Shown in pieces: positions 1-62,343 of a stretch of 64,000 bases of DNA; position 1 is the stretch's first letter, and every line of letters begins with the position of its first letter. This DNA comes from Bryoerythrophyllum caledonicum (Eukaryota > Streptophyta > Bryopsida > Pottiales > Pottiaceae), in assembly GCA_963971425.1 (NCBI GenBank), contig OZ020517.1, positions 12,898,501 to 12,962,500 on the forward strand, read 5' to 3'. The position numbers and the translations under genes are program-made. The notes beneath the pieces are model-generated. The model worked only from the letters and a program-made list of their open reading frames with translations, did not search any database and had not been told where the DNA came from.

Positions 1-1098
1 TTCCCAGTACATGTCGTTATAGTCGCCATTACGGATCAGATGAGGACATGTAGGATTCAAACATCGAAGATGTCCTAAACACTTCACGTACTTGAATGAG
101 AGCTCCGAATTTCGATATGAGATGTTGGTTGTTGCAGTCTCCGTCCAAGCATGCCCATCACTTCGTCGATCCATACCTTCAAGCATTCCTGCTCCTCCTT
201 CCTTGACACAAGGAAGAGGTGGCAACTCAAAAATGACATCCCCATTATATTCAACAGGTAGGTACTTCACCTTCAAATGGGAAAACGACGACAAATCCGC
301 AGATTTCAAAATACTCTTCGAGGATCCTTGATTACCAAGGGCAACAATCAAGTCGTAGATGCTTAATGTGGATGCCTCTGTGGTATCTGCCACAGACGGT
401 TTTGAAGACTTGATCTCAACTGAAGCAGTAACATCAATAGATTCCGACTTTACTGGCATGGAGGTCTGAGATTCTACTGGACAACTGACTCCACGTTGTA
501 TAGATGCCGAGCATGGTGTGTCCTGAGAGAACGACTCTGAAACTATATTCCTTGAAGGCGTCTCAGAAACCTCAAATGAGTCGTCAGCAATAGCGTCAGA
601 GGATTCAGTGATGAGTCCTTTCTGATCACTTGTTCCATCTGCACTGAAATGAAATGTCTGCATCGCTATGTCATCATCATCATCTTCATCATCAGAACTC
701 AACAAGTTGATAGTATTCTCGGGAGACTCTTTAACGGTTGGTAACGCCCGCTTGAGATAATCACGACCTCGTCGCTCAAACGTAGCTATAGACCGAGGAG
801 TGAGAGTAGAAGATTGAGACATATCAAGAGTGGGAAACCCTCCATTGATAGTATAGCTACCTGCACGAAGCGTGTAAACTGTCCTGCCATCTATAAGGTC
901 TGGTTTCTGATAGATAGTCCTGAGAACCACTCCATCAGCTCCCAACTCCTCCTTCTCCACTATTAAAGAGGTCTCATGTAACTGAAACTTAAGACACAAC
1001 AACCTCTCATCAACACTAACAAAGCCTGTGTCATCAACAAGAAGAATGAAAGGAATCGAAGAAGTCAAGAGCCTGAACGATACTACTTGGCTAGCCAT
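1..1098 (-). CDS. Partial gene of unknown function with acidic linker and Cys/His cluster (accessory element)
   Basis: The reading frame stays open for 366 codons from an ATG at 1098 down to the window edge, so the 3' end is missing. The product has a compact hydrophobic N-terminal part (residues about 1-115), a run of acidic residues at about 136-143, a long Ser/Thr-rich and probably disordered linker (about 145-260), and a second ordered part that reaches a cluster C-x5-C-x4-C-x-H near residues 340-351, plausibly zinc-binding. I do not recognise the family. The pattern of a ligand-binding knuckle followed by Arg-Asn-Gly and aromatic residues reminds me of lineage-specific transposon-associated plant proteins, but that is only an impression. 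It is transcribed away from the palindrome copies at 1279-1530, which lie just upstream of its ATG and could be control sites. Confidence 0.6.
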   Translation of the reverse strand, partial: MASQVVSFRLLTSSIPFILLVDDTGFVSVDERLLCLKFQLHETSLIVEKEELGADGVVLRTIYQKPDLIDGRTVYTLRAGSYTINGGFPTLDMSQSSTLTPRSIATFERRGRDYLKRALPTVKESPENTINLLSSDDEDDDDDIAMQTFHFSADGTSDQKGLITESSDAIADDSFEVSETPSRNIVSESFSQDTPCSASIQRGVSCPVESQTSMPVKSESIDVTASVEIKSSKPSVADTTEASTLSIYDLIVALGNQGSSKSILKSADLSSFSHLKVKYLPVEYNGDVIFELPPLPCVKEGGAGMLEGMDRRSDGHAWTETATTNISYRNSELSFKYVKCLGHLRCLNPTCPHLIRNGDYNDMYWE

Positions 1099-1278
1099 GG
1101 TTGTATCAGAAAGAGTGGTATAATCAACTAGAACTGATGTCTTATATACTTAGTACGACATATGATGTAGAGATTGGGATCCATCTTAAAACTGATGGAA
1201 GACTCGTTGTTGGGATCTAGCAAAATATAACAGAATAATAGTTACCTTTATTTGAGCAAAAATAGAGTCATCAGCCTT

Positions 1279-1530
1279 GTTCGGCACAGAACGGCTGACA
1301 TATATTTTAGCCGAAAATTTCTGTTGCGAAAATAGAGCCATTAGCGTCGTTCGGCACAGAATGGCTGACATACACAGCTAATGTGGCCCTTCAGATTCGC
1401 TTAAGGCACTGATGATGCAAACCTGAAGGGCAACACGAGTGCCTTAACGAAATTGGGCCTTTAAGGTTCTAAAATTCTTGAAACACGCAAACCGTTTAGG
1501 TCACTTGATTTATAGCGTTCTGTACAGAAC
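1279..1530. repeat. Palindrome cluster 1 (GTTC-N6-GAAC family), upstream of the minus-strand gene
   Basis: There are three copies. GTTCGGCACAGAAC lies at 1279-1292 and GTTCGGCACAGAAT at 1349-1362, each followed by GGCTGACATA. They sit in a direct repeat of about 70 bp. A perfect 16-bp palindrome, CGTTCTGTACAGAACG, lies at 1516-1531. The first two are in the reverse orientation relative to the copies downstream of 3.5 kb. Confidence 0.85.
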
Positions 1531-1531
1531 G

Positions 1532-2244
1532 ACCATCAGCTATGAACATATATCACTAAACAGTTACATTACGACAATTAAATGCTTGGACCATGGAACA
1601 GTAAATAAAATATATCATATAATGTATAATAATTACAAGTCTGGATTATTATTAATTAAAATAATGTAATAATTATCTCTAAATTATAATCGGAATGATA
1701 AGGGCAACATGCTCAGGAAATGTCTTAATGTAACTTATACAAGTCATGATTAAGGTAAAAGTTTATTATATAACTAATAACAATTTATATGATATACGAG
1801 GGCGTAGGTCAATTATATATTTTACATAGCAGACTGTATAATTGGATAGTAATGGCCAAAAGTGCATTACAGTATATAGTGCGCCAGCAAGAATTGGGAC
1901 AAAGCATAATTGTAAGAGTCAGAGGCGAATACTTTTCTGACGGCTACGTATTCCTAAATTATGCAAAAAGATACCTAAAAATTACTGAAGCCGCCTAAGC
2001 GTTTGAGATCCAATGTGAGGATATTACAATAGCCAATTTGCAAATCACTTTTCAGCGGATACATAGAATCGAATATGTGACCTACTTTAATTCGAATGGT
2101 TACAGCTAACAATTATTTAATACGGCAATTAAGCCATTTTGAAGAATCGGACGGTCCTAAGACGCTTCCCCATCATTATAAGTTTGGTCAAGTCACGGTA
2201 TCTCACAATCATTTCAAGTAGATCTTATGATGTGTTCCTGAGTT
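1532..2244. other. Intergenic, AT-rich, no gene supported
   Basis: I see no supported gene here. Short open frames (for example 1789-1998) lack splice context or recognisable residues. The stretch probably holds the promoter of the small gene that starts at 2245. Confidence 0.5.
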
Positions 2245-2861
2245 ATGGTCGAGACGAGAGCTGTTAGAAGAGCAAAGGCACTACTAGAGTCTGTGGGGAG
2301 ATCTTTGAGTGAGGAGAGGACACCTCCAAAGGCGGATGAATCAGGAAGTGACTATTACTCAAGGACATACTCCAGACGAAGATTAGCTACATCTGAGCGA
2401 CAACTTCAAGAGGTATCGTTTTTCCACACGCAATATTACAAACTTCTACATTTGCATCTAGAGATTTGTTAGTTTCATATGAATATAGAGATGACAATTA
2501 CATCCATTTGTGCTTTTTCCAGAGTCCGATGAAGCCAGAGAAAGCATTCAGTTTAAACATATTAGTGGAGATGTCAACTGAGGCACTTGTACTAGTTGCG
2601 GTTATGGCAGTCATTGTTACATATTATATAGTTCGGACTAGAGATGTTCCGAGAGAGAGACAGAATATGGGACTTCATATAAGAGCGCCAGTCCCATCAG
2701 ACGTCTCATCGGACAAATCCGCTGGCACCTTGAACGATGAGGATCACTTCAGTGAAGCCGATGAGGTTTGGACCCATGAAAAATCATATCACATGTATTG
2801 TGAATTTTATGAGGGGCTTGACGATGAAGCGCTCCACAATGTAGAGAACATGATGGAGTAG
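2245..2861 (+). CDS. Small two-exon gene, predicted single-pass membrane protein, unknown function
   Basis: Exon 1 is 2245-2412 and exon 2 is 2523-2861, joined in phase 0. The GT donor is at 2413 and the intron ends in a pyrimidine-rich TTTTTCCAG at 2522. The product is about 168 residues. The N-terminal third is basic and Arg/Ser-rich. One strongly hydrophobic stretch follows (around ALVLVAVMAVIVTYYIV), then an acidic tail rich in Asp, Glu and His. This suggests a single membrane span with a charged tail, or a hydrophobic helix in a small nuclear protein. I do not recognise a family. It lies between two palindrome clusters and points the same way as the ParB-like gene, so it may belong to the same element. 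It could also be a chance join of two open frames, but the clean splice sites argue for a real gene. Confidence 0.5.
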
Positions 2862-3571
2862 AATTACATAGGATAAGTATCGTTACACTAATAGGCTAAG
2901 CTCTCAAGTTTGATACCCTGATCCTACATAATAAGATCGGTGATACATTAACTACTGTTGGCCTAGTCTAGTGAGCAAATAGAATTGCGACATTGATGTT
3001 GCCATAAATGAATGTAATTTGAACAAAAGTAATCCATATTATATTGCCCTTTATCGTTAATGTGATCTGGTGGATGAAAGCAGCCATAGGGATGCATATC
3101 GTCAAGGTACCTTGGTTTGCAGAAGGTCGTGGTTATGCATCCGCCCATGCCATCAGTGAGCGTAAGTCTCTTGGGTGTGCGCTGTTTGTAATCGTTGGGT
3201 GGGTGATTGCTCATTTCAAAATGATGACTTTAGAGAACTCTTGTGATCTTTGATGCTTGCAATTCGATTTGTAAGTCTGGTCTATGTATTTTTGTTTCAC
3301 TTCGCATTGTTGGGTTTGTAATGAAACCTAGATTCAGAGTTGTCATTTAGGTTCAGATTTAGGGGCGCACTTTGTTCCATGTCCACATTGTTGTAAGCAG
3401 ATCAAGGTTGGATTCTTGACTTCATCGTTTGTGTAGATCTGTTGTTCAAGAATAGTTCTGTTTAGGTGATGTGGTTTTGGGACAATGAGGTTGATAAGGT
3501 TTAGGTTATGGCCAATCCTTTTGGGATCTTAATCCAACACAATGGATGTGTTGTTGACTTTCATAGTTGGT
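2862..3571. other. Intergenic, no gene supported
   Basis: Opposing short frames overlap at 2963-3253 and neither shows domain-like composition or splice sites. I see nothing else in the stretch before the palindrome array begins at 3572. Confidence 0.5.
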
Positions 3572-4299
3572 GTTCTGTACCGAATAGGAGGATACACGCT
3601 AGCTTATGAGTTCAGAAAGTTATATCGATTTGAGATTGAATGATAGTTCTGTGCCGAACAGGGGTATCCTTGGTAGCGCATGACCAAAATGAAGTTCGTT
3701 TTTATTTGAGAGTAGACTATGTTCTGTGCCGATCAGGGGATTCCTTGCTAGAATATAAGTTTACAAAATTTATACGTTTTGATATTATATGATGTAATGT
3801 GCCAAACAGAGGTACTCTGGGTTAACAATATCCAAGGTCAAGAGTGATATACAATACTTGAGGTTGATCTTCAGTGCTGAACAGCGGTACTTTTGGTAGA
3901 TAATGAACAAACCTAAGATTGATTTATTTTACTAGAAGTTGGAGTTCTGTGTCGAACAGGGCACTCTATTGGTTTGATAAAGTGAGATGCATGTTTTTCA
4001 ACTTCGATTTGCATGGCTGTTCTGTGCCGAACAGGGAAATCCGAGCTAGATAAAGGCCATTTTGTACCCTTGCCGAACAGGGGTCCAAAGCCAGAATTTC
4101 GATTCAAAATGTTTAGTTCATTTAAAACGTGACTTGTTCGGCAACGATTAGAGATTTTCTGGGTAGAATATGTCGAAGATCAAGATTGTAATACTTTAGT
4201 GACTAATGGTGTTCTGTGCAGAACAGGGGTAACCTAGGCAGATTTTGTGGATTAACTGTTAGTATTATATGATATGTAATTGCTGTTCTGTGCCAAACA
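3572..4299. repeat. Phased palindrome array: about 10 units of about 75 bp built on GTTCTGTGCCGAAC
   Basis: Copies start at 3572, 3646, 3721, 3794, 3869, 3944 and 4019, with spacings of 74, 75, 73, 75, 75 and 75 bp. After one off-phase weak copy (4065), an inverted weak copy (4136) and further copies at 4211 and 4285 keep the same 75/74-bp step. The consensus is GTTCTGTGCCGAACAGGGG, often followed by TAYCC. The sequence between cores is strongly diverged but still shows traces of unit-level homology (for example CCTTGGTAG or CCTTGCTAG after the core, TTGAGATT before it). This is therefore an old tandem repeat in which the palindrome has been kept best. No gene is visible inside. Confidence 0.9.
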
Positions 4300-4442
4300 G
4301 GGGTCCATAGGACAAATTATTCAGCATTTCTAGGAACCTCATGATATTAACTTAGTTAGATGATAAGCACGTGCATACACATATGTTTTTGCTTTGGTGC
4401 TCTACTGCCTTAGATTTTAAAGAATGTTTGAATAGAATTGTC

Positions 4443-4611
4443 GTTCTGCACCGAACATGGTATCTTGTATTGATTTAATCGGAAATTTCATTTAGATTCT
4501 TAAGAATTAAGCAATTTTTCTCATAAATTTGGAGAATATTATGGATTTTACTATACTTAGGGGAATTGTGAGTAGTCATTAGCTTCTTACACACCATGTT
4601 CTGTGCCGAAC
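4443..4611. repeat. Two further palindrome copies just upstream of the ParB-like gene
   Basis: GTTCTGCACCGAAC is at 4443-4456 and GTTCTGTGCCGAAC at 4598-4611. They are 155 bp apart, roughly two of the 75-bp steps seen in the array before them. The second lies about 70 bp upstream of the ATG at 4683, within the likely promoter or 5' leader. Confidence 0.85.
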
Positions 4612-4682
4612 GACTCACGGACCTAGAATTTTAATTACAGATAGGAAGTCCAAATCAGCTCGCAGAGGGACAGGCAAGCAAA

Positions 4683-7600
4683 ATGGCTGAGGAATTTCAC
4701 CGAAGTGATGATCTCATCCCAGGAGAAATCGGTATGTCAATCAACTTGAATCGCTCCAGTAGTCTACACCCAAGGCATTGTTCTGAATGTAAGATGATGC
4801 GTTCTGTGACGAACGCATGCATGTTGTCAATTGTGAATTTATTTCCCACCTCATTGTGTATTGATTTTTGTTTTCAGATGTAGCAGACATGTTATTCGGT
4901 GGTGACAAAGATGCTAAGGCTGTGCAGCAAACACAAGGGATCATTGGTAATTATATTTGAATCTCGATTTAAATGTATGCTTACATTCTTCTATGTCTTA
5001 TCTCCAGGATACTCACTTTCAGTTGTTGGTGCAGATCCCATAGGTCATGACGGGGTGAGTGAAGCCAACCACAATGATGGTGACGACAGTCCGAGAGTTG
5101 ATGATCATGGTAATGTAACAATTATAATAAAGCAATGTACATTATGACTTACATGCAACTGCGATGCACATTACTTGACTTCAACTGTGGCTACTTTATT
5201 GAAAGCTCCTCTACCGTAGTCTGTGGCAAACGAGTAATATCTCATTAATTTATGCTATCTAATCTTCGTGTTCTGGTATGATAGATGATGACAGCAGTAT
5301 CTCTGGAATGGAAGGCGATGGTGGCCCTGATGGGGATGGCGACAACCATGACATGATAAACAACGAACTTGAGGAGGACGATGCACCCGACAGAGTTGAA
5401 GTCCACAACCACAACGAGGACGATGGCGACGGTGGAATTCTTGAAGGAGAACTGGAGATGTCTGGACCAGCACTGGATTCGGCGCAAGAGTATGAGCTCA
5501 TTGTCGCTCATCGAAAGACCAGGGTGAACTCTATCCAAATCTTGAAGCGCCTGGAGATGTTCGAAGGAGGTAAATCTCACATAGACATACCTCTCTGCAG
5601 AATGAGGAAGTTGCAGGTGGTACGCCCAGCGCTCGAGAATGATATCACCAAGATGCAGGCAGAGTTTGTCCATGGCTACCGCGATGGAGCTGCTGCTTTT
5701 TATGTTTCAACAACAAACTTTGAAGGACAATTGAAGATGGTTACCGCAGAGGATCGAGGAAAATGGAGTCCTCTTTGGCGGAAAAGAGACTTGGAGTTTG
5801 AGGAGTTCTTGAAACGTGACAGGGAGCTTTCATCGCTATCAGACAAATATTTTTACGTGTGGGATGGTAACCACCGTCTGGTAGCGTGGTATGATTTTAT
5901 AAAGAAATCGTACAGAAATGATTATGATTGGCACTTCAGGGTGAGATCAATTGTGCTCCGTACAGCGGACGACGTGACGGATGTACTAACTGCTATGCAC
6001 GACATCAACAAATCGAATGAAAACTCGCATGTGAAGCAGAACCAAGTCCATACTCTTCACCGAATTCAAAAACTCGGATCTTTGCCTATTGAGCAATTTC
6101 CGGATTCACTTGCTCCGGATGAGATGAGTGCGGCTATCAAGGCACAGGAGTTACCTTTGGAGAAAAGGCCGTGGTATCCGATTCCCAGAGCAAGGTTCCT
6201 CGACTTAATTCATAGTGTAAGCAGTATCCAATGCATTCTACAATGTACACTTCTAAAATCTTTATTTCATTTCTTGTATATTAACTATGTCTCATATTTG
6301 TCTTGCAGCAAGAGATCACCGAGGCTGGTGATGAAGGTCAAAGGAGATATGAAGAAGACACACCGCGACGTAGGCGTACAGCCGATGGTTTGCTTCAAGC
6401 AATAAATGGCGCAATGGAAGCAAAGCGAAAGAGCTTATCTGCTGCGTTTACCAAGTTCCTGTCTATTTCGAATCCTGCAAATGGAAAATCATTCCTCACC
6501 GAGGTATTGTTCTATCATTTCAGTCCATGATATTATGTTCTTAATGTACTCTGAGATCGCCATATAGATTTTATACTTAAGTAATCATGCTGTGGGCATT
6601 CATTTTCTCTTCGTAGTATCTTAGAACTCGATCTGCTTGAAAGAGGTTATCTTATCCACGACTGGGTTCCACACGCCGTTCATGGCACTAATGGTATTCT
6701 GTGCCGAACACCACTTTCTGCATGGTAACGAGGACATAGCAGGATATCGAACTAGGGGTGTTCTGTCCCGAACACCCCTCTGAGCACAACAACTAGCAAG
6801 TCATTTGTTTGTGCACCTGGTGCCAATATAAGTATAATTTCATATGATGGTTGCATAGTTCGGCCCTTGGTTGGCCTTGCATTGTCTGTTTTTTTAATTC
6901 TAAAACCTCGGGTTCAATCAGGGTGCTAAAAATTTGGTGCGAGAGCTTCAGGCTTGCGAGTGCTGTTCTTGCTCATCGGTGTTGGTAGAGAGTGTAGTTT
7001 TATCGGACGGATGTGAACTTGTAGTGATGGTCATGCCTTGGGAGTAGATTGTTGTGGTGACCTATGTTGAAATTGATGTACGTCTCACGTATACATCTTT
7101 AATGACTATTCTCCCTAACAGTATTTATGATACTATTTGTCAGATTGCCAAGCACTGGTCTGCGAATTTGACACCAGAGATGACCACAGAGAAATTACAG
7201 AATCTTGCTTCTTCTTGTATACCCTCGACGGAAAAGGAGCAAATTCTGAGAATCTGGAACTCCTCCAAAGAGAACAGGAAGCTCAAGAAGTTTCCCCTCG
7301 CCCCGTTCAATGACAACACCTTCAACACGTACCTCCACAAGTATGTGTTCTGGCATCAACTGAAGGAGAACTCTATGGAGTTCTACAGGGCAATTGCTAG
7401 TGATTATGCACTCACGGATATTAAACCAAGTATAAAGTTCGAGGCCTATGTTGTCTCGAATCGAGTGAGGCAATGGGATTATGCATTCAATCGAGCTATT
7501 CTCAACAAGGAGATCCAAAAGTCCGCGGAATTGGGGAGCCCAAAGCAGCCCCATGGTGAACCTGCCATGGACCGCCTCATCTACCGGTGAGTTCCTGTCC

Positions 7601-9544
7601 ATTTCAAATATCTATGCTGAAAATTCATAGCAAGCGAGTTTGATTTCTTACTATAATATTCAGCTCATGCAACTTACTGTTGTCTTCTTGCTTGCAGATA
7701 TTGGACCAATATTTTACAAGCGGAAGGACTTGTGCCTGAGGCACATCCTTGCTTTGCGTCGTGGCTTAATCTCAACAATGAGGAATCTATGTTTACGGTT
7801 GAGCAAGCGAGTGATTGGAGTGAGGAGCACTTACTGGCTTGCCACTGGTACGTGGAAATTGATCCACTAGATACTCCTCCACATGAAATTGAGAACAGGC
7901 GGTCGGTGGAGCCATCCTTCCAGCGCCAATCTGGTCCTCCTCAAGATAATGTGGAGCAAAGGGCTCATGTCGATGTCACGCTCGGAAAGACCGCAAAGCC
8001 CAAGTCCAGAGGTGGTCCAAGAGGGCCTTCAAATGCTGTTGCGACTTCAAGAGATCATCCCGCTAAGGGCAACAAACGAACAGCCGGTGCAGAAGATGAA
8101 CAGGCAGCCTCGTCAAAGAGAGGCAAGAAAGATGGGGGAATCGCTGATCGGACTGTCCATATTGACGGAGCTCAGTCTGAAGCAAGGTCTTCCAAATCCC
8201 ATTGACATGTCACTAGAAGTATAGGGGGTGGCTACTTGTCCACTTTGCGGACCTCTCTGTTTCAACGTGCTCAAGAAGGAGTGAAATACCACGAACTTGT
8301 CATTAACAGCTCTGTCGGTGATTTCTTGGAGAGCGAGGCAACGACGTTCGAAGAATTTGCTGCCTTGGTACACTCCTAACAATACCCCTATTTCTTTTTA
8401 AATGAGTGAATCCATGTCAATTCCATTACTAATGAGTTAATATTCTTGTAACAATGACAGGCAAGAGGAAGCGTGGAGACCTTTCTTCGCGGCAAGGCAG
8501 GCACGTTCCCAGTAGCGGACCTTGTTATCATTGACCAGCCTTTTGAAACGGTTGTTCCTGGTTTTGGAGATCGCATACCGCCGTGGAACTCTTTGGATGG
8601 TTCCTTTAAAAACTGGTACTCATCACGGTTCGAGTTTACCTACGATTATCTCCACGATGATGGTGCTATTCTGATATTGATGCCCATGGGATTGAGCCAC
8701 GAGATTCTGCACTGGATTCTGAAATACAAACTGAAAACTAAGTGTGAATGGCAAGTTCACCAGTCCGAGCCCCTAACGCACCCAGCCTATGAGGGTATGA
8801 TGGTAAGTTAATCACTTCACCCATGTGTTGCAATTATCTAGAATCCTTGTCGAGGGAAACTGCTATGACTGGAAGATGCCTGTTCGTTTTCAAACAAGTT
8901 CTGGTTATAATTTTTTTAACTAACAGCTTCGCACCCGAACATGGTCAATGGATGGACATTCTAGGATTTATTTATATCATAGGATTTTTCACTTTGTTAT
9001 TGCAAGGTATATATTGACTATCCTTCATACTTATTTGACAGTTATCACATAGGCTCAAAATTAAGACTAACTATCAAAATGATGCCTTGTTCAGACATTC
9101 AATTTCTCAGCGGTGCTGTTAGTAAAAACCGGACGGCTCAAGGACAAGCAGTGGGACAGGTTGCCAATACCGTTGAAGTTGAACGCTGATCCATTGTTGG
9201 CCAATACTCCAGAGGACCCTATGAAGTACCTTACTCTCACTAACTATGTAGGAAAACCATCCACTGACAAACGCGGAAACCCTTGGCGTGGACCACATGA
9301 GAAGTCGGATATTTTCTTCCAAATCCTAATTGACATGTGTTCAAAGCCAGGAGACATAGTTGTCGATTTGAATGCCTCTATAGGGGCATCTCTTTTGGCG
9401 TGCCGAGCTTCCGGGCGCCACTTCTTTGGCATCGAAGAAGACAATGACATATTCAACGCTATCTTGAAGCCGCTGACCAAGCTAGGGGAGGCTAAGAAAT
9501 CATTGAAAAACCGTCGTGGTATGGATGGTAACCTCAGCCCTTGA
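4683..9544 (+). CDS. ParB/sulfiredoxin-like domain fused to a degenerate beta-class DNA amino-methyltransferase domain
   Basis: My splice model has ten exons: 4683-4731, 4878-4946, 5008-5109, 5285-6216, 6309-6503, 7144-7586, 7698-8367, 8461-8802 and 9095-9544, plus a possible unseen junction near 8205. All have GT-AG borders and matching phases, about 1,080 codons in total. An acidic N-terminal region precedes a ParB/Srx-like domain at about 190-310, with the signature DGNHRLVA at about 267-274 (ParB-type GxxRxxA box). A Lys/Arg/Ser-rich linker lies before 8205. The C-terminal third has the beta-class motif order: DQPF near 845 in place of DPPY (motif IV), then a PGDIVVDLNASIG stretch near 1019 in place of the FxGxG SAM loop, followed by FFGIEED. 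Both catalytic motifs are altered, so methylation is doubtful; DNA binding is more likely. One in-frame TGA at 8203-8205 either breaks the gene or marks an intron I could not place. Palindrome copies occur upstream and in its introns. Confidence 0.72.
4801..4814. repeat. Intronic palindrome copy (intron 1 of the ParB-like gene)
   Basis: GTTCTGTGACGAAC lies inside intron 1. With its flanks it forms GCGTTC-TGTGAC-GAACGC, so the arms extend to six bases on each side. Confidence 0.85.
6696..6779. repeat. Two intronic palindrome copies, one with 10-bp arms (intron 5 of the ParB-like gene)
   Basis: ATTCTGTGCCGAAC is at 6696-6709. At 6754-6779 the core sits in an extended inverted repeat with arms AGGGGTGTTC and GAACACCCCT around a 6-base centre. 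The AGGGG that follows the core in most array copies is here mirrored on both sides. The host intron (6504-7143) is the longest in the gene. A weaker copy, TTC-GCACCC-GAAC, lies at 8926-8940 in the last intron. Confidence 0.85.
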
Positions 9545-9870
9545 ACTACAGTGTGGCATATATCGTATTTTATTGGATTCATTGCCTTGCGACGTTCACA
9601 TGTTATGCTTATCTTCTTGACTGTATCATGCTTAGAACTCGCGATATTGTAGCACGCAGTACATTTTTTGTACGAGGACAATGCAATGATAATTTATCAA
9701 TCATCATTTTGAGCCTATTGAATTCTTCCTCCAGTCTGGTCTCCAAGTCTACATGAGCATCCCACGAGTACCATACCGAACAAGGGAGTTTGCTTCGTAC
9801 CTTTGCAGAACCTCCACTCCTATATTGTTTTTACTTAACTGTATCTGCACCCTTCGATTCATGATTTCTA
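9545..9870. other. 3' flank of the ParB-like gene
   Basis: I see no gene here. One half-site of the palindrome family (CCGAACAAGGG) lies at about 9776. Composition then shifts sharply to the AT-rich block. Confidence 0.4.
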
Positions 9871-12660
9871 TGCTGCTGGCGGTATCGTAACATAGCAATT
9901 AGTTAGTATATGATATCAAAACTTTAGTAAGTATATGCTATGAGAATATAGCAATTACAACATTTACATATGTAGAGTTTAAAGTTGACATCAAAGAGAC
10001 TTACCATTTGCACTTAGAATATATATTTAGGGCTATACATATTTTTATATATTAAATACAAATTTGATAGAAATATATGAATATATTTATATATATTATA
10101 CTCTCTATATGTATGTTACTCTCAATATTTGTAAATATATTATACTCAATTTACTCTATGTATATATATTATACACTCTTATATACTTAGAGAATAATTA
10201 TACAAGTTTTTTAGATTGATACTATATATGTTTATAATATATAATAGAATTTATTGCATTCTTCCAAACTTGTATGAAGTCACTTGATCATATACTTTTT
10301 ATTATCCGTTCTTTATATTTAAAAAACGTATATTCTGATTTCTAGCTATATGTTATTATATTAATGTTAAGACATATATTTGAATAAATGAATATTGAAA
10401 TTATTGTTTATATAAAGTAATAATTATTTATAACTATATATGTATATATATATATATATATATATACATATACAATTTATCACTTTTAGTGTCATTTTAG
10501 TGTCATTTGGGGTATAATATAAATTCATTTCCTAAGTTTCAATACAACATATGAATTGTATGTATAATAATTGATACATACATATATTATATATAATTAG
10601 TAATGAATACATTTATATTTTAATGTATTCTATATATTTTAAAATAATTACATAATATAGCTATGAAATATTTGCATACCGATATGGAAATAATTTATGT
10701 CCTTATTAGTACTTATACATGTTTAAACAATTAAATCTAAATTAATGTATTTATATTTTTTTAAAACAATATATACATGTATACGTATGTATATATATTA
10801 GTATTTATATTTACTTATTTATATATGACTTTAATATTCACGTGTATGTCGATCATATCATGCATCCTAAGTAATTTTATACGTCCTAAATGAGATTTGA
10901 ATTGACAATGTATTTCAATTTATTAACTTCTCATAGTGTTATACTATACATATATACTATTGTTCCTTCATCATATTTCATACGTATGATATGATTCTAT
11001 TAAAACGCACTCATAATGACATTCTATTTAACTTAAATATTATTTCAAACTACTAACACTATATTTATAACTTTGGAATTTTCATAATTCTAAATGATAT
11101 CATTTCCAATATGGGATCTAATTTTCTTTTTCAAAAAAGCGTAGTATTTAATTCTTCTTGGTGTCTTAAATATATTTTAAAGTATAATATATATCTTTAC
11201 AATTTCTACAAATAACACTTGCATTTTAATACACCTGGCATAGGATATAAGATATATTTTAAAATTCCAATAATCTCGCCAAATTCAAAATATAAATTTT
11301 ATTGTGTTTATTGCATATAAAAATATATAATTGCTAATATATATATAGAATGTATATATATAGAATATATATATATATAGAATATATATATATATATATT
11401 CTATATATTTTTTAATATTTACATAGTATATTTATGCATTATTTGCATACGTATATATAAATAAATTAAGTCCTTATTAGTGTATATACATGTATAGTTT
11501 TAGAAAATTATATACATGTATACGTATGTTTATTTATATAGATATATATACTTACTTATTTATATATGCTTTTCATATCGACATCTATGTTGATTATATC
11601 TTGCATCTCATGTAATTATATACGTCCCAAATGAAGCCTTTAGATTTGAATTGAAACTACTCTCACATAACAACAAATTTAATTGTTGTATATTTGGAAT
11701 GTATCTAAATTTACTAACTTCTCATAGTGTATATGTATACACATATACTATTTTTTTTTCACCCTATTCAATATGTATGAAATGATATTATTTAAAATGT
11801 ATATATAATAACATTCTATTTAACTTCAATATTTTGCCTTACTTCTAACACTATATTTATAACTTTGGAATTTACATAATTCTAACTAATGTCATTTTCA
11901 ATATGGAATTTTTAAAAGTCCAAAAATCTCGCCAAATTCTCAATTTACATATTATTGTGTTTATTGCATATACAAATATATAAAATTTGTATTCACATGC
12001 GTCTAATAATGTATTGACTTTAATAATAAATATTAAAAAAATATAAATTATTTTACAACAATGAAAATATCCATATATATATATATATATGGATATTTAT
12101 ATAAATCTTAATATATATAGATATGTATAGATATATACATATACATATGATACACCTATATATATAAATATATATATATATATAGGTGTATCATATGTAT
12201 ATGTATATATATACGCATATACTTGTATATTTAATTTATCAAACAATTGAACATGTAGCCTATAAAGTGTAACAAAGACAATTATTTCATTACATGTTTA
12301 TCTACATATTCATTTATCAATAGTAATACATTTTTATAAAAATGATGAATTCTAAAGTATAGTAAGAGGTTGTATCGAATTCCCATTCAATTTTTTGCCA
12401 TCTCTACTATGTATAGACAAATATTTATGAAATGAATACGACATTATATGACTTGGTTAATACGGCCCTACAATAAACATTTATATATATTTTCATATTT
12501 TTATATTATAATTTTATATTCATTATTTTAATCAAATTTAATGTTAGTTTTTCTATATTGTCTATAAATATTCAAAAAGAAACTACAGAGTACAGTGGAA
12601 GTACTCTATTGTTTTTGTCTTATATTCATGCTATAATACATCTAAAAAAAGAAATATATT
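9871..12660. repeat. Very AT-rich block with an internal direct duplication and a perfect 36-bp inverted repeat
   Basis: The stretch is mostly A and T with many (TA)n runs (10440-10467, 11335-11410, 12075-12093). About 10625-11330 and 11398-11985 are diverged direct copies. Both contain, in order, GTCCTTATTAGT, TATACATGTATACGTATGT, a CATCCTAAGTAATT-like or CATCTCATGTAATT-like segment, AACTTCTCATAGTGT, ACTATATTTATAACTTTGG and ATCTCGCCAAATTC. A perfect inverted repeat has arms at 12131-12166 and 12175-12210 around an 8-base loop. I see no coding potential. Easily melted DNA next to repeated palindromes could serve as a matrix-attachment or origin-like region, but that is inference. Confidence 0.75.
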
Positions 12661-12676
12661 ACGTCCATGTATAGGC

Positions 12677-13610
12677 GTTCTGCACGAACACCAATATTTA
12701 GCGCAATTAAAATCTAAAAATAAACAAGTATTGCCGAAATGCTGGCATGTTGTGTCGAAACCAGAACCGGTTGCTATCGGTGTTCTGTTCAGAGCGAGGT
12801 GGTGTTCTGTACAGAACAAAGGGGTGTTCTGCACAGAACGAGGGGGAAGGGAGGGGGGAGGTCTGTTTGGAATGGTGAGAGCGTTGTTATGTACAGAACA
12901 CAATATTTGCATTTCCAGATTTCCCCATTCGGCACCGAACGAGGTCATAGTGAATTTGGAGATGGATTCTGCAGCAGAATTTATAATTTGAATTACCAGA
13001 TTTCTCCATTTGGCACCGAACGGTCATAGAGTATTTCGAGATGGATTCTGCAGTTGTCCAGTCATCCCTTTCTTAAGTTAAGCACTAATTTTGTTTTTTT
13101 ATCAAGTACTAATTGTTTTCTGTTGAATACCCTTAAGTAGGTGCTTCAGATTTGTGATTTCCAATAACTTGAGAATTCAGGTTCGGCACAGAACAGTCAT
13201 TAGCAAGAAAATAAAAAGTAGTTCCCTCAAATTTCCTGAGTTTAAAATTTTGACTAATCTGTTTGCATCAACATATCCCCTTTTATCATAAGTATATCAA
13301 TGTCAGGTTCTAATTCTCTCTACTAACCCTGCACCAAAATGTTAAACACAAAATATAATTTCAAACACCTAATTGACAACATTGACAAGTTTGAGAGGTT
13401 GTAATTCAGTTTTTACGGATTATAAACTACCCGTTCGGCACAGAATGATCAGAAACATAGCACCACTTGAATCTAAAACGAAGATCATCTCATCCAAATA
13501 TTCAAGTAGATTAAATGTTGACGTAGGTCTTGGGTGTCGTGATGATTGTTTACCAAGTCTGCAATAAAAAAATGCAATACTTTATATCTTGACCCGGTTC
13601 GGCAAAGAAC
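12677..13610. repeat. Palindrome cluster 3 with an orientation switch and a G-run
   Basis: Copies start at 12677, 12782, 12804, 12826 and 12886 in the GTTCTG orientation, and at 12927, 13008, 13181, 13433 and 13597 in the GTTCGG orientation. The copy at 12804 is the perfect palindrome GTTCTGTACAGAAC. The three at 12782, 12804 and 12826 are 22 bp apart, about two helical turns. The copies at 12927 and 13008 lie in an 81-bp direct repeat. Between 12839 and 12862 a purine run with several G-tracts could form a G-quadruplex. No gene is supported; open frames across this stretch are incidental. Confidence 0.85.
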
Positions 13611-14211
13611 TAGTATATCATGTCAAACACTAACTGTTGTATGTAAAGCAATATTCAGTAAACCACAATCTTGACAGGTTGAAGAAAACGTATAGCTCGT
13701 AGAGTCGTTCACAAATTTTCCATTGCAGTAATCTGCAAAAATATAAACAAGTATGTTAGAATTCGAATGCATAATTAGAATCTTTACAAACAATTTATGT
13801 AAACTGCAAGACCAGTAACAGTCATGATGTTATTCGAATGCATAATTGGAAAACTTACTAACTATTCAGGTGAAATACATTACACATTTAATTGAATGCG
13901 AACAGGTGTTTGTCAATTACCATACATAGTTGATATGTTCAACAACCATATTAGATAATAGCACTTACGCAGGTTTTGAGTTTCCTTTCAGTCTGATCCT
14001 TGATGCTTCCTGTTTTTATTGCGAGTGAAATTTGTGCCGCCTATATCATTGTTCAAGAATCTTCTCCTCATCTTCGGTTCGGAACATTCACCAACCATAG
14101 CTTCTTTCGTCGTATCTGCACATTCTATTCCAAATCAAGTTGCATAAATGACAATGAGCAGATCAAATTTTGAACTGAATCTATTTGTGCTAAATAGTTA
14201 TTTGCTGATTT
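13611..14211. other. Intergenic, no gene supported
   Basis: This is the 3' flank of the minus-strand RING-like gene. A weak half-site (GGTTCGGAACATTC) sits at about 14077. I see nothing else. Confidence 0.4.
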
Positions 14212-15408
14212 CTATTGTGTCTTTACATTTATATTGAGATGGCCTTCTAACATACCTGGCATTTTGTCAAGGCCTACGCTCCTCTTCCAATTTTCGGTGA
14301 AGGCTGTTTGACATTCCTTCTTTGCGCATCGATCTTCCACCCACGTCTGCATCACTATACACCAAGGATGATACGTGCATTGGCAAGGTGCCACAATGAT
14401 GTCCATGTGTGGGAATTCGCCATTGCACAATGCACACGGATTTATCGTGATCAGATTAGTGCTGTGGCTTGGTAATTCTTCTTGTACATGTTGACTCGGG
14501 CGCAGGTTCATGGGAAATCGAACCCGATCTTCCATCTTTTTGAGGACGCCTTTCAATCGATCCATATCTCCTTCAATATTCCCCATTACAGTCTGCAATC
14601 GATCCAGATCATTCAGGGCTTCAAGAATCTCACCCTTTGAGTCGACTAGGGCTATCTCCTTACGTTTGATTCCGCATTTCAGCTTGATGATCCGCTCCTC
14701 CTCCTTCACCATCCTCTCACGGATCTTCTTCGAAATCTTCTCGCTTCTGCTACCGACGGCTGACTTTTCCTTGCACTTGGCTAAGACCTCCTCTGCCTCC
14801 TGCAACTGAATCTTGAGCACCGACAATCGCTCCAGTAGTCTTTCTCTTTTGGCTCCCTCACTTGGATTTGTTGGTGATGCCATTCGTGAACTAATAAACA
14901 CGTGTGTGTTTCCATAATCGGCGTCTGCTTTGCCGTAAGCCACCCTCAAATCCACGATCTCTCCCTCGAGTTTTGACTTGGCCAGTTCGTAGTATGATAG
15001 TTTCTGCGAGTCTGCTCCAACATACTTTATCACATTTTCGCTCTTTTTGTCTGAGTTCTTGCTCATTCTCCATCTCTCCGATGCGTACTGGGCCCAGTTC
15101 ATTGGGTACCCATGGCAAACCTCTGAAACTATAGCTCGAGCTAAACTCTCAGAAATACACTCATTTTTTGGCATCTCACTAAACTGGTAAATAGCAGGAT
15201 ACAATTCCTCTGCACGTCGTTTCACTCTATCCGACTTAGCTCCTGGATAGTAATATCCTTTCAACTGCTGTCTTTCACCAAACATTCTGCGCAACTCCTC
15301 ATTCTGCACGTGGTTGCAATCTCTCGAAGGATCTAGCCCCCAGTTGGGCAATGACACCTCCAATGCAAACCACGGCTCCATCCCTCTCTCCACATTACCC
15401 CTCTCCAT
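14212..15408 (-). CDS. Coiled-coil protein with C-terminal RING-like zinc finger, single exon
   Basis: An uninterrupted frame of 398 residues runs from the ATG at 15408. The frame is open a little further upstream but has no earlier ATG. The N-terminal part is globular and rich in Trp, Tyr and Glu. A long heptad-like Lys/Glu/Leu region (about residues 165-310) is a likely coiled coil. The last 90 residues hold a Cys/His cluster with spacing C-x2-C-x13-C-x-C-x2-H-x2-C, then two more Cys five residues apart. That resembles a RING or RING-like fold with an unusual Cys in the third-ligand region. Such domains often bind E2 enzymes or act as protein-binding modules; no catalytic role can be read from the sequence. 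It lies at the edge of the palindrome-rich region and may be a further element gene, or an unrelated neighbour. The lack of introns contrasts with its neighbours. Confidence 0.65.
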   Translation of the reverse strand: MERGNVERGMEPWFALEVSLPNWGLDPSRDCNHVQNEELRRMFGERQQLKGYYYPGAKSDRVKRRAEELYPAIYQFSEMPKNECISESLARAIVSEVCHGYPMNWAQYASERWRMSKNSDKKSENVIKYVGADSQKLSYYELAKSKLEGEIVDLRVAYGKADADYGNTHVFISSRMASPTNPSEGAKRERLLERLSVLKIQLQEAEEVLAKCKEKSAVGSRSEKISKKIRERMVKEEERIIKLKCGIKRKEIALVDSKGEILEALNDLDRLQTVMGNIEGDMDRLKGVLKKMEDRVRFPMNLRPSQHVQEELPSHSTNLITINPCALCNGEFPHMDIIVAPCQCTYHPWCIVMQTWVEDRCAKKECQTAFTENWKRSVGLDKMPGMLEGHLNINVKTQ

Positions 15409-16553
15409 TGCTAAACACTCTGTCCTTGCTATCCTCACAAACAGTATTCGATGAAATGTGTATTGTATTCTCTAACTGTTAGACCTTGTTTTTCAGGTCA
15501 AATGAGTTGCGTCGCCATGGCCATGGCTATGGCTGGTAAGTGGATATGGCTGACATTGAACTTTCTTAATTGTTATCAATCATCACTCATTGTTGTTCCC
15601 CAGCAGCCGTTTTATTAACCTAAATTCGTCATCAAGTTGATTGAATTTGACACGTTGGTGTACCAGTCATCATTTCATTTGGAGTATCCTTTGATAGTTT
15701 TCAAATCGTTCATTAGTCATGGATGATTTCATCCTCATATATAGAACGAAACTGTCTTACTAAATAAAGTAATTCATCCGCTCATGGCTCATGAAAACCT
15801 GCTCATGGCTCACGTGCTCATGGCTCTATGCTCATGCTCTAGCATTCCCCCATATTACTGAATAAAGAACCTTGCTCACAATCGAGTACCGCAACAAAAG
15901 CGAAGCAGAAATGCAATGCAATGTAGATCTGGGGTTTAGGAACATGGGAAGTTCAAAGGAGATAGATGTTCCACATTTACAACACTCACTGAAGTCATTT
16001 ACCAAGCCATCCATCCTCCCATTTTGACACCAACTAATGACACGAACAGTGATTGACGATGGTGAATGGTGAAAGTAAGGAATGGTAGGATGACGAGGTT
16101 TAAGGTTTAGGGGATCGATGCGGCTGAGGTGAGTAGGGTCTGCACAGTACTACAGGAATCCAATGCTCGTATGACAAATGATTAACATTTACACTTCAAT
16201 GTGGCGATCAGGAACTAGATCTGCAAACACCTATATGAACACCTCTCTTTCTCTGTGACACAAAAGCGCGCAACTAATATACAGAAAAAACACACTCGGC
16301 TGATGGAACAAATCACCGCTAAAAACTGAACCATGGCATATGAATACACGTGAGCGAACTCTAAAATCTAGTACCATCCCTGCATAGCTCAGAAGTTTTT
16401 GACCCTGCCTACACCACAGTCAAAAATCACCTTCTCCCATGGGCGGGATCGTTGGAATCCGTTCCCAACTGCACCGCTCAGTTACACCGCTGTTGTCGTT
16501 GGTCAAAAATCAGCTTCTCCATCGCAATCTGAGCCTGTTCCAACCAATCCACA
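15409..16553. other. Intergenic between two minus-strand genes
   Basis: The stretch contains the upstream region of the RING-like gene and the 3' flank of the spatacsin gene. A short exon-like piece bounded by CAG and GTAAG (about 15497-15534, plus strand) encodes a Met/Ala repeat but has no partner exons that I can find. GCTCATGGCT is repeated several times at 15780-15840. No gene is supported. Confidence 0.4.
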
Positions 16554-49150: not shown

Positions 49151-51345
49151 ATTTCAACTTTTTTGACTTCTTGCCCACGTTGTTCTTGTTTACCTTCTCC
49201 AATCAATGCACGTCATTTTCTTTGCCCTCCTTCAGCCACTAAAAGACAAGAACTTCAACTTTATCCCACCAACCTCCACCTACTCCTTAACCCCTGTCTT
49301 TAGACATTCAAGGGACAAAGTGAGTCCCATCGCAAAGACAAGAACTTCAACTTTATCCCACCAACCTCCACCTACTCCTTAACCCTTGTCTTTAGACATT
49401 CAAGGGACAAAGTGAGTCCCATCACAGGTTGATCTTGTTTATCTTCTCTAATCAATGCACCTCATTTTCTTTGCCGTCCTTCAACCACTAAAAGACAAAA
49501 ACTTCAACTTTATTCCCCAACCTCCACCATCCTCCTTGACACAAGTCTTTAGGCATTTAAGGGACAAACCGAGTCTCATCACACGTTGTTCTTGTTTACC
49601 TTCTCTACTCAATGCAAGTCATTTTCTTTGCCCTCCTTCAACCATTAAAAGACAAAAACTTCAACTTTATCCCACCAACCTCCACGTGATCGTCCTCCTT
49701 GACACCTGTCTTTAGACATTCATGGGACAAAGTGAGTCCCATCGCAGATTGATGTTCTTATTTACCTTCTCAAATCAATGCACGTCATTTCCTTTGCCCT
49801 GCATAAGCCACTAAAAGACAAAAACTTCAACATTATCCCACCAACCTCCACCGTCCTCCTTGACACCTGTCTTTAGACGTTCATGGGACAAAGTGAGTCC
49901 CATCGCAGGTTGATCTTGTTTACCTTCTCTAATCAATGCACGTCATTTTCCTTGCCCTCCTTAAACCACTAAAAGACAAAAACTTCAACTTTATCCCACC
50001 AACCTCCACGTGATCGTCCTCCTTGACACCTGTCTTTAGACATTCATGGGACAAAGTGAGTCCCTTTGCTTGTTGTTCTTATTTACCTTCTCAAATCAAT
50101 GCACGTCATTTCCTTTGCCCTGCATAAGCCACTAAAAGACAAAAACTTCAACATTATCCCACCAACCTCCACCGTCCTCCTTGACACCTGTCTTTAGACG
50201 TTCATGGGACAAAGTGAGTCCCATCGCAGGTTGATCTTGTTTACCTTCTCTAATCAATGCACGTCATTTTCCTTGCCCTCCTTAAACCACTAAAAGACAA
50301 AAACTTCAACTTTATCCCACCAACCTCCACGTGATCGTCCTCCTTGACACCTGACTTTAGACATTCATGGGACAAAGTGAGTCCCATCGCAGGTTGATCT
50401 TGTTTACCTTCTCTAATCAATGCACGTCATTTCCTTTGCCTTGCATAACCCACTAAAAGACAAAAACTTCAACATTATCCCACCAACCTCCACCGTCCTC
50501 TTTGACACGTGTCTTTAGACGTTCATGGGACAAAGTGAGCCCCATTGTTTGTTGTTCTTGTTTACCTTCTCTAATCAATGCACGTCAATTTCCTTGCCCT
50601 CCAGAAACCACTAAAAGACAAATACTTCAACTTTATTCCCCAACCTCCACCGTTCTCCTTGACACCTGTCTTTAGACATTCAAGGGACACAGTGATTCCC
50701 ATCGCACGTTGTTCTTGTTTACCTTCTGTACTCAATGTAGGTCATTTCCTTTGCCTTGCATAACCCACTAAAAGACAAAAACTTCAACCTTATCCCACCA
50801 ACCTCCACCGTTCCCTTGACACGTGTCTTTAGACGTTCATGGGACAAAGTGAGTCCTATTGCTTGTTGTTCTTATTTACCTTCTCTAATCAATGCATGTC
50901 ATTTCCTTTGCCCTTCATAAGCCACCAAAAGACAAAAACGTCAACTTTATCCCACCAACCTCCACTGTCCTCGTTGTGACTTGTCTTAAGAGGTTCACGG
51001 GACAAAGTGAGTTCCATCGCAGGTTGATCTTGTTTACCTTCTCTAATCAACGCATGTCATTTTCCTTGCCCTCAATAAGACACTAAAAGACAAAAACTTC
51101 AACTTTATCCCACCAACCTCCACCGTCCTCCTTGACACCTGTCTTTAGACGTTCATGGAACAAAGTAAGTCCCATCGCGGGTTGATCTTGTTTACCTTCT
51201 CTAATCAATGCACGTCATTAACCTTGCCCTCCATAAGCCACTAGAAGACAAAAACTTCAACATTATCCCACCAACCTTCACCCTCCTCCTTGACACCTGT
51301 CTTCAGACATTCAAGGGACAATCTGAGTCCCATCGCACTATAAGT
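49150..51345. repeat. Satellite-like tandem array, unit about 160 bp, about 13 copies, with a 320-bp higher-order period
   Basis: Units begin at (GTTGTTCTTGTTTACC or GTTGATCTTGTTTACC) near 49178, 49430, 49584, 49754, 49910, 50074, 50230, 50392, 50550, 50707, 50865, 51026 and 51181. Each carries CAATGCACGTCATTTTC, CACTAAAAGACAAAAACTTC, CCCACCAACCTCCACCGTCC and CTTTAGACATTCATGGGACA. A pair of adjacent units at about 49754-50073 is repeated almost exactly at 50074-50390, an offset of 320 bp, which shows a recent dimer duplication. An extra 93-bp fragment is duplicated at about 49333-49425. The unit is the C/A-rich end of the large repeat described upstream, amplified locally. Confidence 0.9.
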
Positions 51346-59733: not shown

Positions 59734-62343
59734 CTAGCGAAGGTTGCCATCTGTATCCCAATCTTCATAGAACTTCAGAACATCCCGATCGTGTGATATA
59801 GGGCGGAAGAATTGGATACGGACGGTATTTGGCATATCCGGATTAGAGTTAGGATTTGAAATTGCTTGAGCAATCCAAAATGGGCGCTCGTCTCTATCAC
59901 AAGGCCGCAATGCAACAAAATAGCCAGCAAAAATATCACGACCAACTCTAAAAGAAGGAGGTGGACGATCGCGCCTCTGGCCAACAAAATGCTCATCTTT
60001 ACCGTACTCCTTGCGTACCTCATCCTCCGTTGCGAATTCATCTTCAATAGCATGGGCGATTCGCGTCGTTGGCCAAAAGTCGTCTTCCAATGATATGGGC
60101 GTATCCATTGGATGAGTTAGAGCATCTCTAACGACGCGCCAATAGTACAATAGCCGCTCATAACGTGATCTAGATCCTGAAAGTCTCTTCACCACCTCAA
60201 GGAGATGACGCATCGTAGAAGGCTTCACTGCAGCAGGTTCTCCGCGAGGCCATAAAGTTCTTCATTCAGAATCTTCCTTCCATAATTTGATGCCACTACC
60301 TTCTCCTCCTTTAGGAAGCCAATCCTCATCATCACAAAGGATTTTATACTTCATTACCGGACAACCACTTGAGTCGAGATAAAACTTGAACTGATGAGCC
60401 TTCGTACGACCCTGCAAAGCTTCATCACCGTCCGCAATCATGTCCCCGATGAACTTCTTAATGTCAAGAACCTCTTAGATGAGATGCGAGATTGTGGGAA
60501 CACTCTCATTTTTCATGAACAACCTCATGAGCAAAGGAATGGTTGGAAAACTCTCCTTCCTCAGTGTCATACTCCAACGTCCAAATAATACATCTATATC
60601 ATCATGTGTGTGACCAACTAGCATGAAATTAACATATACCTCGCGGAAGATGCTTTTTGCAACAAGGAGAGACCAAAAACAAAAAACAAATTAATTTTTG
60701 TTATTACCAACAACATTGTCCATTTGCACGTTCAATATTGGAGGCAAAGGCCTCCCTGGAACTAGGATATCTGGAATCTGTCCTAATGGATCCAAAGACA
60801 TCTCTGCACCCCATAATACCGCCGTATACAATGGATGAGAACTATATTCAGGAAAAAATTGACGGGACGATGATTTCGGAGGCACCTCCAGGTCACGCAA
60901 TAGTTTTGCGAACGACCCGACCGTGTAATTGGCATCATGGGAGTATAAATCAAGGCCGTAATGGGCGTAACGTTGGTCCACTAGACCATGGGCAACCATG
61001 CCTGTGACTGCAAGAGGCAACTTCAAAAGCCCATCTAAGTGCTTTGTTTTATGTGAAAAATTTGGGGAGGTGGTCTTTGAGTGATCCATCTTATCATGCA
61101 TGAAGGTTTGAACCTCATAGGGCGCCGACTTTGAGCAAAATCGGTTGAGGTAGTACAAGTCCCAATGTGCAAAAGCAGAATCGATGTGGACCTGCATCTT
61201 CTTTTGCCATAGTAGTGATGCTTGTGTTCCAGGCTGAGTAAGCTTCTTTTGATCCTGGTATTTGTCACACGTAGAACAATGGGCAAAGTTATCTCCACCT
61301 TTCTTGGCATAGTTTCTCAGGGAAGCTCACCCGCCAAATCATATTCAAGTTTGAGGTTGAGATTGGCGGCAATCCACAGTTAGCGAGGTGATCATTAAGA
61401 AGCGGTATTTGATCCTTCCACTTAAAACTTGTAGGAAGGACCTTTGCCACAGCCTTCTTGCTAGATGGAAGAATACAAAACTTGTGAGGCATGTGGTCCA
61501 CATGTCTATCGAGGATGGCTCGAAGAGCAGCAGTAGCCACAACCGTATAACCTCTAGGCTTATGCAAACCAGTATTCCTGTGGTGTTGAGCCGTATGACG
61601 AGTGGCAACGTCCTTCGCATTTGGATAGAAAGTACTCGAACTTACACCCATGATTTTCATCTAGGCATGGGCACAGACGTCTACATCCTCTGGAGTCACA
61701 ACCTTCCTACCCACAGCGTTTCTATGAAACTGTCTGTAAACGTTGAGTTTGATATGATTTTGAAACTGTACGATGGTCTCATTGTACAAGCGTGTCCGGA
61801 GGACTTTTCTTTTATCTCTATGGTAGTGTTGGACACAGTTTTGAATGCAACAGCTATTGCTCGCAACTGCGTTAATGGAATGAGGGGTCATGAGGAATTG
61901 AGCATTCCTAGACACTGTTGGACGTGTATTTCTTGAGGAATTGTCGTACGAACAAGTGCTCCCACCTAGAGGTTTGTTACGCTCAACCAACCAGACATTG
62001 TAATCGTCTCTAAGGCAATGATGGAAGAGACTCACATCGTTTAAAAAGATTTGTTGAATTGGCCAGGACTTAAATGAGTACGTCTATTCATCAGGAGCTT
62101 CCTCCTCAACAAAAGTAATGGACACTAGTACTACATTATTTGAATTGCCAAGATGACCAGAAGAGCTTAGAATTGCACTAGACCGAACATTGCAAACCAA
62201 CCCTCCGCAATGCGAACATCCAAACCATTGTGAAGCGAAACAGTCATCCGGACCCAGAGACGGCAAGGAATAACATTAAACTCAGGAAGGTCCCGGTTCA
62301 CGAGAGCGTCAACATGAACCTCGTCATTCTCCGAGGAAGACAT
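59734..62343 (-). pseudogene. Decayed DUF7869-like transposase gene
   Basis: Successive minus-strand frames between an ATG at 62343 and a stop at 59734 read as one protein family. In order they show a Cys-rich N-terminal part with CCIQNCVQ, a segment GVSSSTFYPNAKDV, a zinc-like C-x2-C (FAHCSTCDKYQ near 61270), HDKMDHSKT near 61095, NVQMDNVVGNNKN near 60710, and GHTHDDIDVLFGRW near 60610. The conserved Asp/Asn residues and the GHTHxDID motif are what I know from DUF7869-type proteins, thought to have an RNase-H-like transposase core. The last part (60228-59734) is open for 164 residues and rich in Trp, Arg and Asp. An in-frame TAG lies at 61661-61663 before MKIMGVSS, a frame change occurs near 61300, and another stop lies near 60475, so the gene is dead. 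Palindromes of one family flank it on both sides. Confidence 0.7.

Follow-up and report, generated by a model that had tools for sequence, protein, structure and literature searches.

The transposon Sola1-1_Ec32 of Ectocarpus carries, on the strand opposite its transposase, a gene for an accessory protein of 1104 amino acids (aa) that joins a ParB-like part to an N4C/N6A methylase; counterparts occur in green and red algae, and the authors suggest that these proteins may bind their own element and modify it epigenetically (PMC12477816). In Arabidopsis, VANC21 occupies non-coding DNA of VANDAL21 in introns, between genes and at the termini, on short motifs embedded in tandem repeats, and methylation is lost through its action (PMC5735166, PMC10398659). 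Fusions of a ParB CTPase with an N6_N4 methylase are commoner in phages than in bacteria and are enriched in prophages (PMC12704722). Here we describe a locus of the moss Bryoerythrophyllum caledonicum, in a window of 64,000 nt (assembly GCA_963971425.1, contig OZ020517.1, positions 12,898,501 to 12,962,500 of the forward strand; coordinates below are those of the window). Its first part holds a ParB-like/methylase gene, a divergent transposase-like gene and 26 copies of a 16-bp palindrome. With a probability of roughly 45%, we read the locus as a transposon whose ParB-like/methylase accessory protein binds the element's own palindromes and controls its chromatin, most likely by anti-silencing.

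Like Sola1-1_Ec32, the moss locus has a single protein that joins an N6/N4 methylase to a ParB-like part (in the moss, a motif-level assignment). The lengths are similar, with 1104 aa in the alga and 1147 aa in P0001, a relative from the moss Ceratodon purpureus, and the gene is encoded opposite to the transposase of a large DNA transposon (in the moss, opposite to the transposase-like gene of a candidate element). They differ in that the host is a moss and not an alga and that the S-adenosylmethionine (SAM) motif of the moss protein is degenerate; the likeness is one of architecture, taken from descriptions. The available text names no binding sites for the alga (PMC12477816), whereas the moss locus has 26 candidate sites. 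The gene thus looks like a member of the recently noticed class of ParB-like/methylase proteins, and the iterated sites are the new part. Searches of open-licence literature gave no moss case and nothing relevant on a ParB of mosses or Physcomitrella. As in VANDAL elements, a short motif is repeated in intronic, intergenic and terminal non-coding DNA and in diverging tandem repeats; in the moss the repeated motif is limited to the non-coding DNA of the element and is partly in tandem. The VANC21 motif, in contrast, has 9 bp and is not described as palindromic in the available sources, and demethylation has been shown for VANC21 (PMC5735166, PMC10398659), whereas the moss locus is known from sequence alone. 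The Pfam scan of the gene pieces listed no VANC-related family; a direct comparison with a VANC sequence was not made.

The palindromes are real and clustered beyond chance. Four perfect copies of TGTTC-N6-GAACA are present in the window (4018, 4210, 6759 and 12803) against an expectation of 0.09, and at least four were found in 0 of 100 dinucleotide shuffles. Allowing one arm mismatch gives 19 matches, all of them at 1278–14086 and none in the other ~50 kb; allowing two gives 55, of which 34 fall within the first 16 kb and 21 in the 48 kb that follow. A weight matrix, which is partly circular as it was built from the 19 one-mismatch matches, was run at a threshold of about 0.5 chance matches per 64 kb of simulated sequence. 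It returns 29 sites: 26 at 1278–13611, close to the 28 or so that the original prediction had counted between 1.2 and 13.6 kb, and three weaker ones at 16136, 28853 and 35391. The 26 include 17 of the 19 one-mismatch matches; the two others lie at 8881 (in an intron) and 14071. A chance origin is ruled out by the shuffles and by the other 50 kb of the window. The consensus is TGTTCTGTRCMGAACA, with half-sites TGTTC[T/G]G[T/C]; all 16 positions differ from background in the matrix, the outermost two least, and the conserved specific core is CTGTRCMG. CG is present in 20 of the 26 sites, and the perfect site at 12803 is a fully symmetric DNA palindrome.

The 26 sites avoid predicted coding sequence. 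Three lie in the upstream region between the divergent genes, 11 in intron 1, one in intron 2, two in the intron after 6503 and nine at 12.8–13.6 kb, so that 14 of 26 are intronic, between 2.4 and 7.1 kb. The span given in the original prediction starts at 3572; tblastn with P0001 puts exon 1 at 2245, which places the sites at 3.6–4.8 kb in introns. Predicted exons make up 37.7% of positions 1–15438 and are touched by 0 of 26 sites (p = 5e-6 if the sites are independent, 8e-4 if they are taken as 15 clusters); the exon set includes one small right-hand exon placed by eye, and the one-mismatch match at 14071 lies inside it.

Part of the series arose in tandem. The units of the intron 1 array (Table 1) step by 73–75 bp with a single exception of 117 bp, and over 3540–4060 a lag of 75 gives the top self-identity among lags 20–259 (5.4 standard deviations (sd) unmasked, 3.4 sd with the palindromes masked). 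Across the ten units identity is 0.77 in the palindrome, 0.38 in the left flank, 0.52 in the first bases to the right (0–15) and 0.38 beyond them (16–29); the best non-overlapping 16-column window reaches 0.515. The palindrome is retained while the flanks of the array have decayed. In the right-hand region, 12781, 12803 and 12825 form a tandem triplet at 22-bp spacing. Most of the asymmetric sites point in the same direction as the gene closest to them: the orientation is minus at 1278 and 1348, plus in 13 of the 14 intronic sites (the exception is 4442) and minus in six of the nine at 12.8–13.6 kb.

The gene beside these sites runs from 2245 to 9544 in about eleven predicted exons, several edges of which were set by eye, with one in-frame stop at 8203. 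Its best relatives are the two Ceratodon purpureus proteins P0001 (M758_1G295400), which has 1147 aa and is 74% identical across the part used in the search, and P0002 (KC19_7G101700), which has 661 aa. The box DGNHRLVA, on which the original prediction had based its ParB assignment, is present at 5863–5886 in the largest exon; in its longer form, WDGNHRLVAW, it is identical in P0001 and matches the GxxR of Box II. The GxxR motif and the domain combination are what the moss protein has in common with the phage ParB-CTPase/N6_N4-methyltransferase fusions (PMC12704722; Bce_0392, PMC5512222), from which it differs in being eukaryotic and intron-rich, in a middle region of about 450 aa that matches no family, and in lacking a ParB match at profile level.

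The methylase part is identified by PF01555, whose cut-off is 26.7 bits (28.8 bits, E = 1.5e-6, for the window gene piece; 30.4 bits for P0001 and 35.0 for P0002). P0002 also matches methyltransferase families of PHROGs (best 8e-9), and in a PDB sequence search the DpnA methylase was matched weakly (E = 0.053), the remaining lines being weaker. In tblastn searches against phages and plasmids, the methylase part alone matched among the matches listed (1 of 1 for P0002; the best 25 of 140 and 30 of 350 for P0001), and the four phage loci inspected hold stand-alone methylases, L001–L003 by annotation and the unannotated L004 by an open reading frame of 255 aa. A virus or phage origin of the locus itself was rejected, since in scans of IMG/VR none of the pattern matches, 1 for P0001 and 19 for A2, was confirmed.

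An active beta-class amino-methyltransferase has a motif I with GxG in DPFxGSGT and a motif IV of the form (D/S/N)PP(Y/F). The moss domain is permuted, motif IV (DQPF) preceding motif I. Motif I reads DLNASIGAS in the window, DLSASTGAS in P0001 and DLAASTGAS in P0002, compared with DPFGGSGS, DPCAGSGS and DFTMGSGT in three phage proteins; its first G is replaced by S in all three moss sequences, which depart here from the active pattern. Motif IV is DQPF, DTPF or DQPY in the moss proteins and alone is not diagnostic, as the phage methylase L002 has DIPY. We infer from these residues that SAM binding by the methylase half is weak or lost, and the degenerate motif suggests a reader rather than a writer. 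The bdelloid N4CMT is likewise a permuted amino-methylase captured by a eukaryote; it differs in having SPPY, in being active and in participating in transposon silencing (PMC8885841). Genes for TET/JBP in fungal DNA transposons are also transposon-borne DNA-modification genes and are thought to counter silencing, but TET/JBP is a dioxygenase (PMC12730594).

Bacterial parS has the core CACGTG and is read by the helix-turn-helix (HTH) part of ParB. The moss sites resemble it in being 16-bp palindromes with TGTTC/GAACA arms, iterated near a gene with a GxxR box. They differ in the core, in the lack of a significant HTH in the protein, in that no ParA is seen, and in that many sites lie in the introns of a plant gene. 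The kinship with parS that the original prediction had suggested is not supported by the comparison, with CTGTRCMG in place of CACGTG and no PF02195 match in the gene pieces scanned. The original prediction had cautioned that it could not see the HTH part, and the Pfam scan gives no significant HTH but only a sub-threshold E2F/DP winged-helix line of 19 residues (E = 0.2; 11.9 bits, where the cut-off is 25.7). Segregation of the parS type was rejected on the same grounds, namely the different core and the lack of a ParB profile match and of a significant HTH.

The transposase-like gene, which diverges from the ParB-like gene, has relatives on ENA contigs (P0003–P0008) with 39–58% identity. The longer of these extend, as judged by eye, into a cysteine/histidine cluster and a region resembling DDE transposases. 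No ends of an element were found within the window, and the left end would fall beyond it.

Table 1. Features of the candidate element, in window coordinates.
Feature	Position	Strand	Basis or remark
16-bp palindromic site, candidate binding target: TGTTCTGTGCCGAACA			
Transposase-like gene, 5' part (366 open codons, truncated at window edge)	1..1098	-	Open frame; divergent from the ParB-like gene
Three palindromic sites (1278, 1348, 1516)	1278..1531	.	Upstream region common to both divergent genes
Exon 1 (MVETRAVRRAKALLE...)	2245..2412	+	tblastn with P0001: 53% over 45 aa, E = 8e-7, 2245–2379; 3' edge by eye
Decayed tandem array of ~75 bp, intron 1	3571..4299	+	10 units: nine with a matrix-level palindrome and a degenerate one at 4135
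Three further sites: 4442, 4597 (intron 1), 4800 (intron 2)	4442..4815	.	Matrix
Small predicted exons 4683–4731, 4878–4946, 5008–5109	4683..5109	+	Open frames and splice consensus (eye, script); outside the P0001 tblastn alignment
Exon with ParB-like box WDGNHRLVAW (GxxR)	5285..6216	+	73% identity to P0001 over 248 aa; ParB call by motif alone
Exons 6309–6503, 7144–7586, 7698–8202, conserved middle region	6309..8202	+	Splice sites by eye; P0001/P0002 alignments agree
Two sites: 6695, 6759	6695..6774	+	Intron between 6503 and 7144
Exons 8227–8367, 8461–8802, 9095–9544: N6_N4 DNA methylase domain	8227..9544	+	Pfam PF01555; phage methylase alignment
Nine sites, right-hand non-coding region: 12781, 12803, 12825, 12885, 12926, 13007, 13180, 13432, 13596	12781..13611	.	

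Taken as a transposon, the first ~14 kb of the window would be part of a moss DNA element. A transposase-like gene would be accompanied by an accessory gene that diverges from it and encodes a phage-style ParB-like protein of about 1100 aa with an N6/N4 methylase. The palindromes would be binding sites of an element-encoded protein, most likely the accessory protein as a dimer. From many sites in the introns, in the non-coding DNA on the right and in the upstream region common to both genes, this protein would control the chromatin of its own element, and the most likely outcome would be a sequence-specific anti-silencing such as that by Arabidopsis VANC. We favour this because the sites are clustered beyond chance, are absent from predicted exons (0 of 26) and are kept in a decayed array, and because of the transposase-like divergent neighbour, the PF01555 domain, the published algal architecture, the phage fusions and the placement of the VANC21 sites. 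Three of its steps go beyond what is observed: we infer that a transposase is encoded by the left gene, that the palindromes are bound by the accessory protein and that the outcome would be relief from silencing. An accessory protein that reads the iterated sites of its own transposon is the simplest account that joins all the parts, with VANC-like relief as the likeliest outcome. The original prediction had proposed a plant element that uses a ParB-like protein on its own iterated sites for segregation, silencing control or transposition; the mobile-element-like locus, the ParB-like box beside the sites and the role in silencing control are kept, and segregation is dropped. The methylase domain, exon 1, the divergent gene and the 75-bp array were missing from it. 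A more specific form seems to us rather unlikely. In it, a land-plant transposon would have made a ParB-like/methylase protein of phage type, its SAM motif degenerate, into the sequence-specific reader of a 16-bp palindrome that the element has multiplied in its introns, its upstream region and its right-hand non-coding DNA. The protein would then be a second counterpart of VANC, built independently, possibly with ParB-like nucleotide-gated loading and with spreading from the sites.

Several points weigh against the favoured reading. Palindromes and gene are seen together at one locus. The likeness to the algal proteins is one of architecture, and VANC is described without mention of a ParB or methylase domain in the available parts of the sources (PMC5735166, PMC10398659). 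Scans of the gene pieces in Pfam, PHROGs and NCBIfam gave no ParB profile match, PF02195 included, at E up to 10, although the HMMER filters remove most matches above about E = 0.1 and so limit the relaxed ParB scans at E = 1, 2 and 10; a PDB sequence search with the ParB-like exon gave seven lines (E = 0.57–4.3), none of them ParB. The sole matches in the protein searches are the two Ceratodon proteins (2 of 2933 scored candidates; 2 of 7999 including the query itself), in searches that find only relatives with exact words in common and of which the second scored only the candidates with most common words. The transposase call was made by eye, and for the transposase-like family there was no Pfam match at cut-off and none in the PDB profile search. 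The array units were picked partly by their palindromes, which inflates the contrast between palindrome and flank, and the lag-75 signal drops to 1.5 sd once 18 right-hand bases are also masked, so that it is chiefly the palindrome and the flank to its right that reveal the tandem origin. Finally, an in-frame TGA at 8203–8205 separates the middle region from the methylase domain. In the alignment, residues of P0002 span this position and P0001 has a short gap; the TGA is either a nonsense change or an unplaced splice, and a 38-nt intron across it was rejected because it breaks the frame. The window copy may therefore be decaying, and its protein may lack the methylase half.

The main rival keeps both protein and sites and makes the methylase half active, so that the protein would read the palindromes and mark its own element with N6-methyladenine or N4-methylcytosine, for protection or activation. 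The domain architecture and the algal proposal of self-binding and self-marking (PMC12477816) argue for it, and a motif IV of the form DxPF/Y is compatible with it, as the aligned phage DIPY indicates; but motif I is degenerate in the three moss proteins compared with the three phage proteins, and in the window copy the stop precedes the methylase domain, so that we consider an active writer unlikely. To the same degree we doubt that the transposase binds the sites, for transposition or autoregulation, and that they have nothing to do with the ParB-like gene. Plant elements with repeated transposase sites are known, and some of the palindromes are found ahead of the transposase-like gene or in the non-coding DNA on the right, but 14 of 26 are in introns at 2.4–7.1 kb, away from the right-hand DNA. 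Less probable again is that the palindromes are recognised by a transcription factor of the host that drives the element. A near-palindrome of 16 bp around a conserved core is what a dimeric factor typically binds, and the upstream region and intron 1 would suit such a role; the other 50 kb, however, contains no one-mismatch match and only the three weaker matrix sites, one of which (28853) is within the span of the spatacsin gene, and tandem amplification inside introns fits an element-specific reader better.

That the palindrome is incidental to a functionless, mutated tandem or dispersed repeat is very improbable. Some copies do stem from tandem duplication and neighbours have some flank in common, but the palindrome is kept where the flanks have decayed, five separate non-coding regions have it in common with little flank by eye, and none of the 26 sites is in a predicted exon. 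Least probable of all are RNA hairpins in introns or untranslated regions, with a TGTTC/GAACA stem and a conserved 6-nt loop. An asymmetric loop that mostly points the same way as the nearest gene would suit an RNA; yet pairing ends at 16 bp, only 5–8 of 26 flanking pairs being complementary at offsets 1–9, which is about chance, and 12803 is fully symmetric as DNA. The hairpin was rejected for want of complementarity past 16 bp across the 26 sites. Longer arms are seen by eye at two single sites, 6695 and 6759, unlike the general lack of flank pairing.

Between the accessory gene and the right-hand sites, 9900–12700 is very AT-rich (19% GC at 10–12 kb) and contains a duplication of several hundred bp (pieces 10611–11117 and 11382–11909, 74–84% identical) and an inverted repeat with 61-nt arms at 12110–12231. 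A minus-strand gene at 14215–15471 is coiled-coil-like, with a C-terminal CxxC/HxxC cluster that is RING-like by eye; it has no Pfam match at cut-off and none in NCBIfam, and a protein search whose length filter came from a joined query gave no relative. Possibly it belongs to the element as a third gene. The adjoining minus-strand gene is a spatacsin gene (Pfam Spatacsin_C, E = 1e-31 and 8e-29 at 16.5–18.0 kb), whose open frames apparently carry it on to about 30.7 kb. This gene and the Ceratodon relatives mark the window as nuclear DNA, in all likelihood of a moss. Further to the right are a satellite-like array of 158/321-bp units at 49334–51337 (12.6 copies of 158), inside a strong GC skew at 46–52 kb, a minus-strand DUF7869 fragment at 60691–61197 (E = 1.7e-9), perhaps from another mobile element, and about 15 copies of interstitial telomere-type TTTAGGG repeats at 63348–63456.

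The algal proposal of self-binding and self-marking names no target in the available text (PMC12477816); the moss locus supplies a concrete 16-bp candidate, which makes the proposal of self-recognition testable, and the decayed 75-bp array that has kept its palindrome is an internal evolutionary control. If the favoured reading is true, the class of ParB-like/methylase proteins would extend to land plants, and transposons would have evolved sequence-specific self-recognition on at least two occasions, each time from an unrelated protein.

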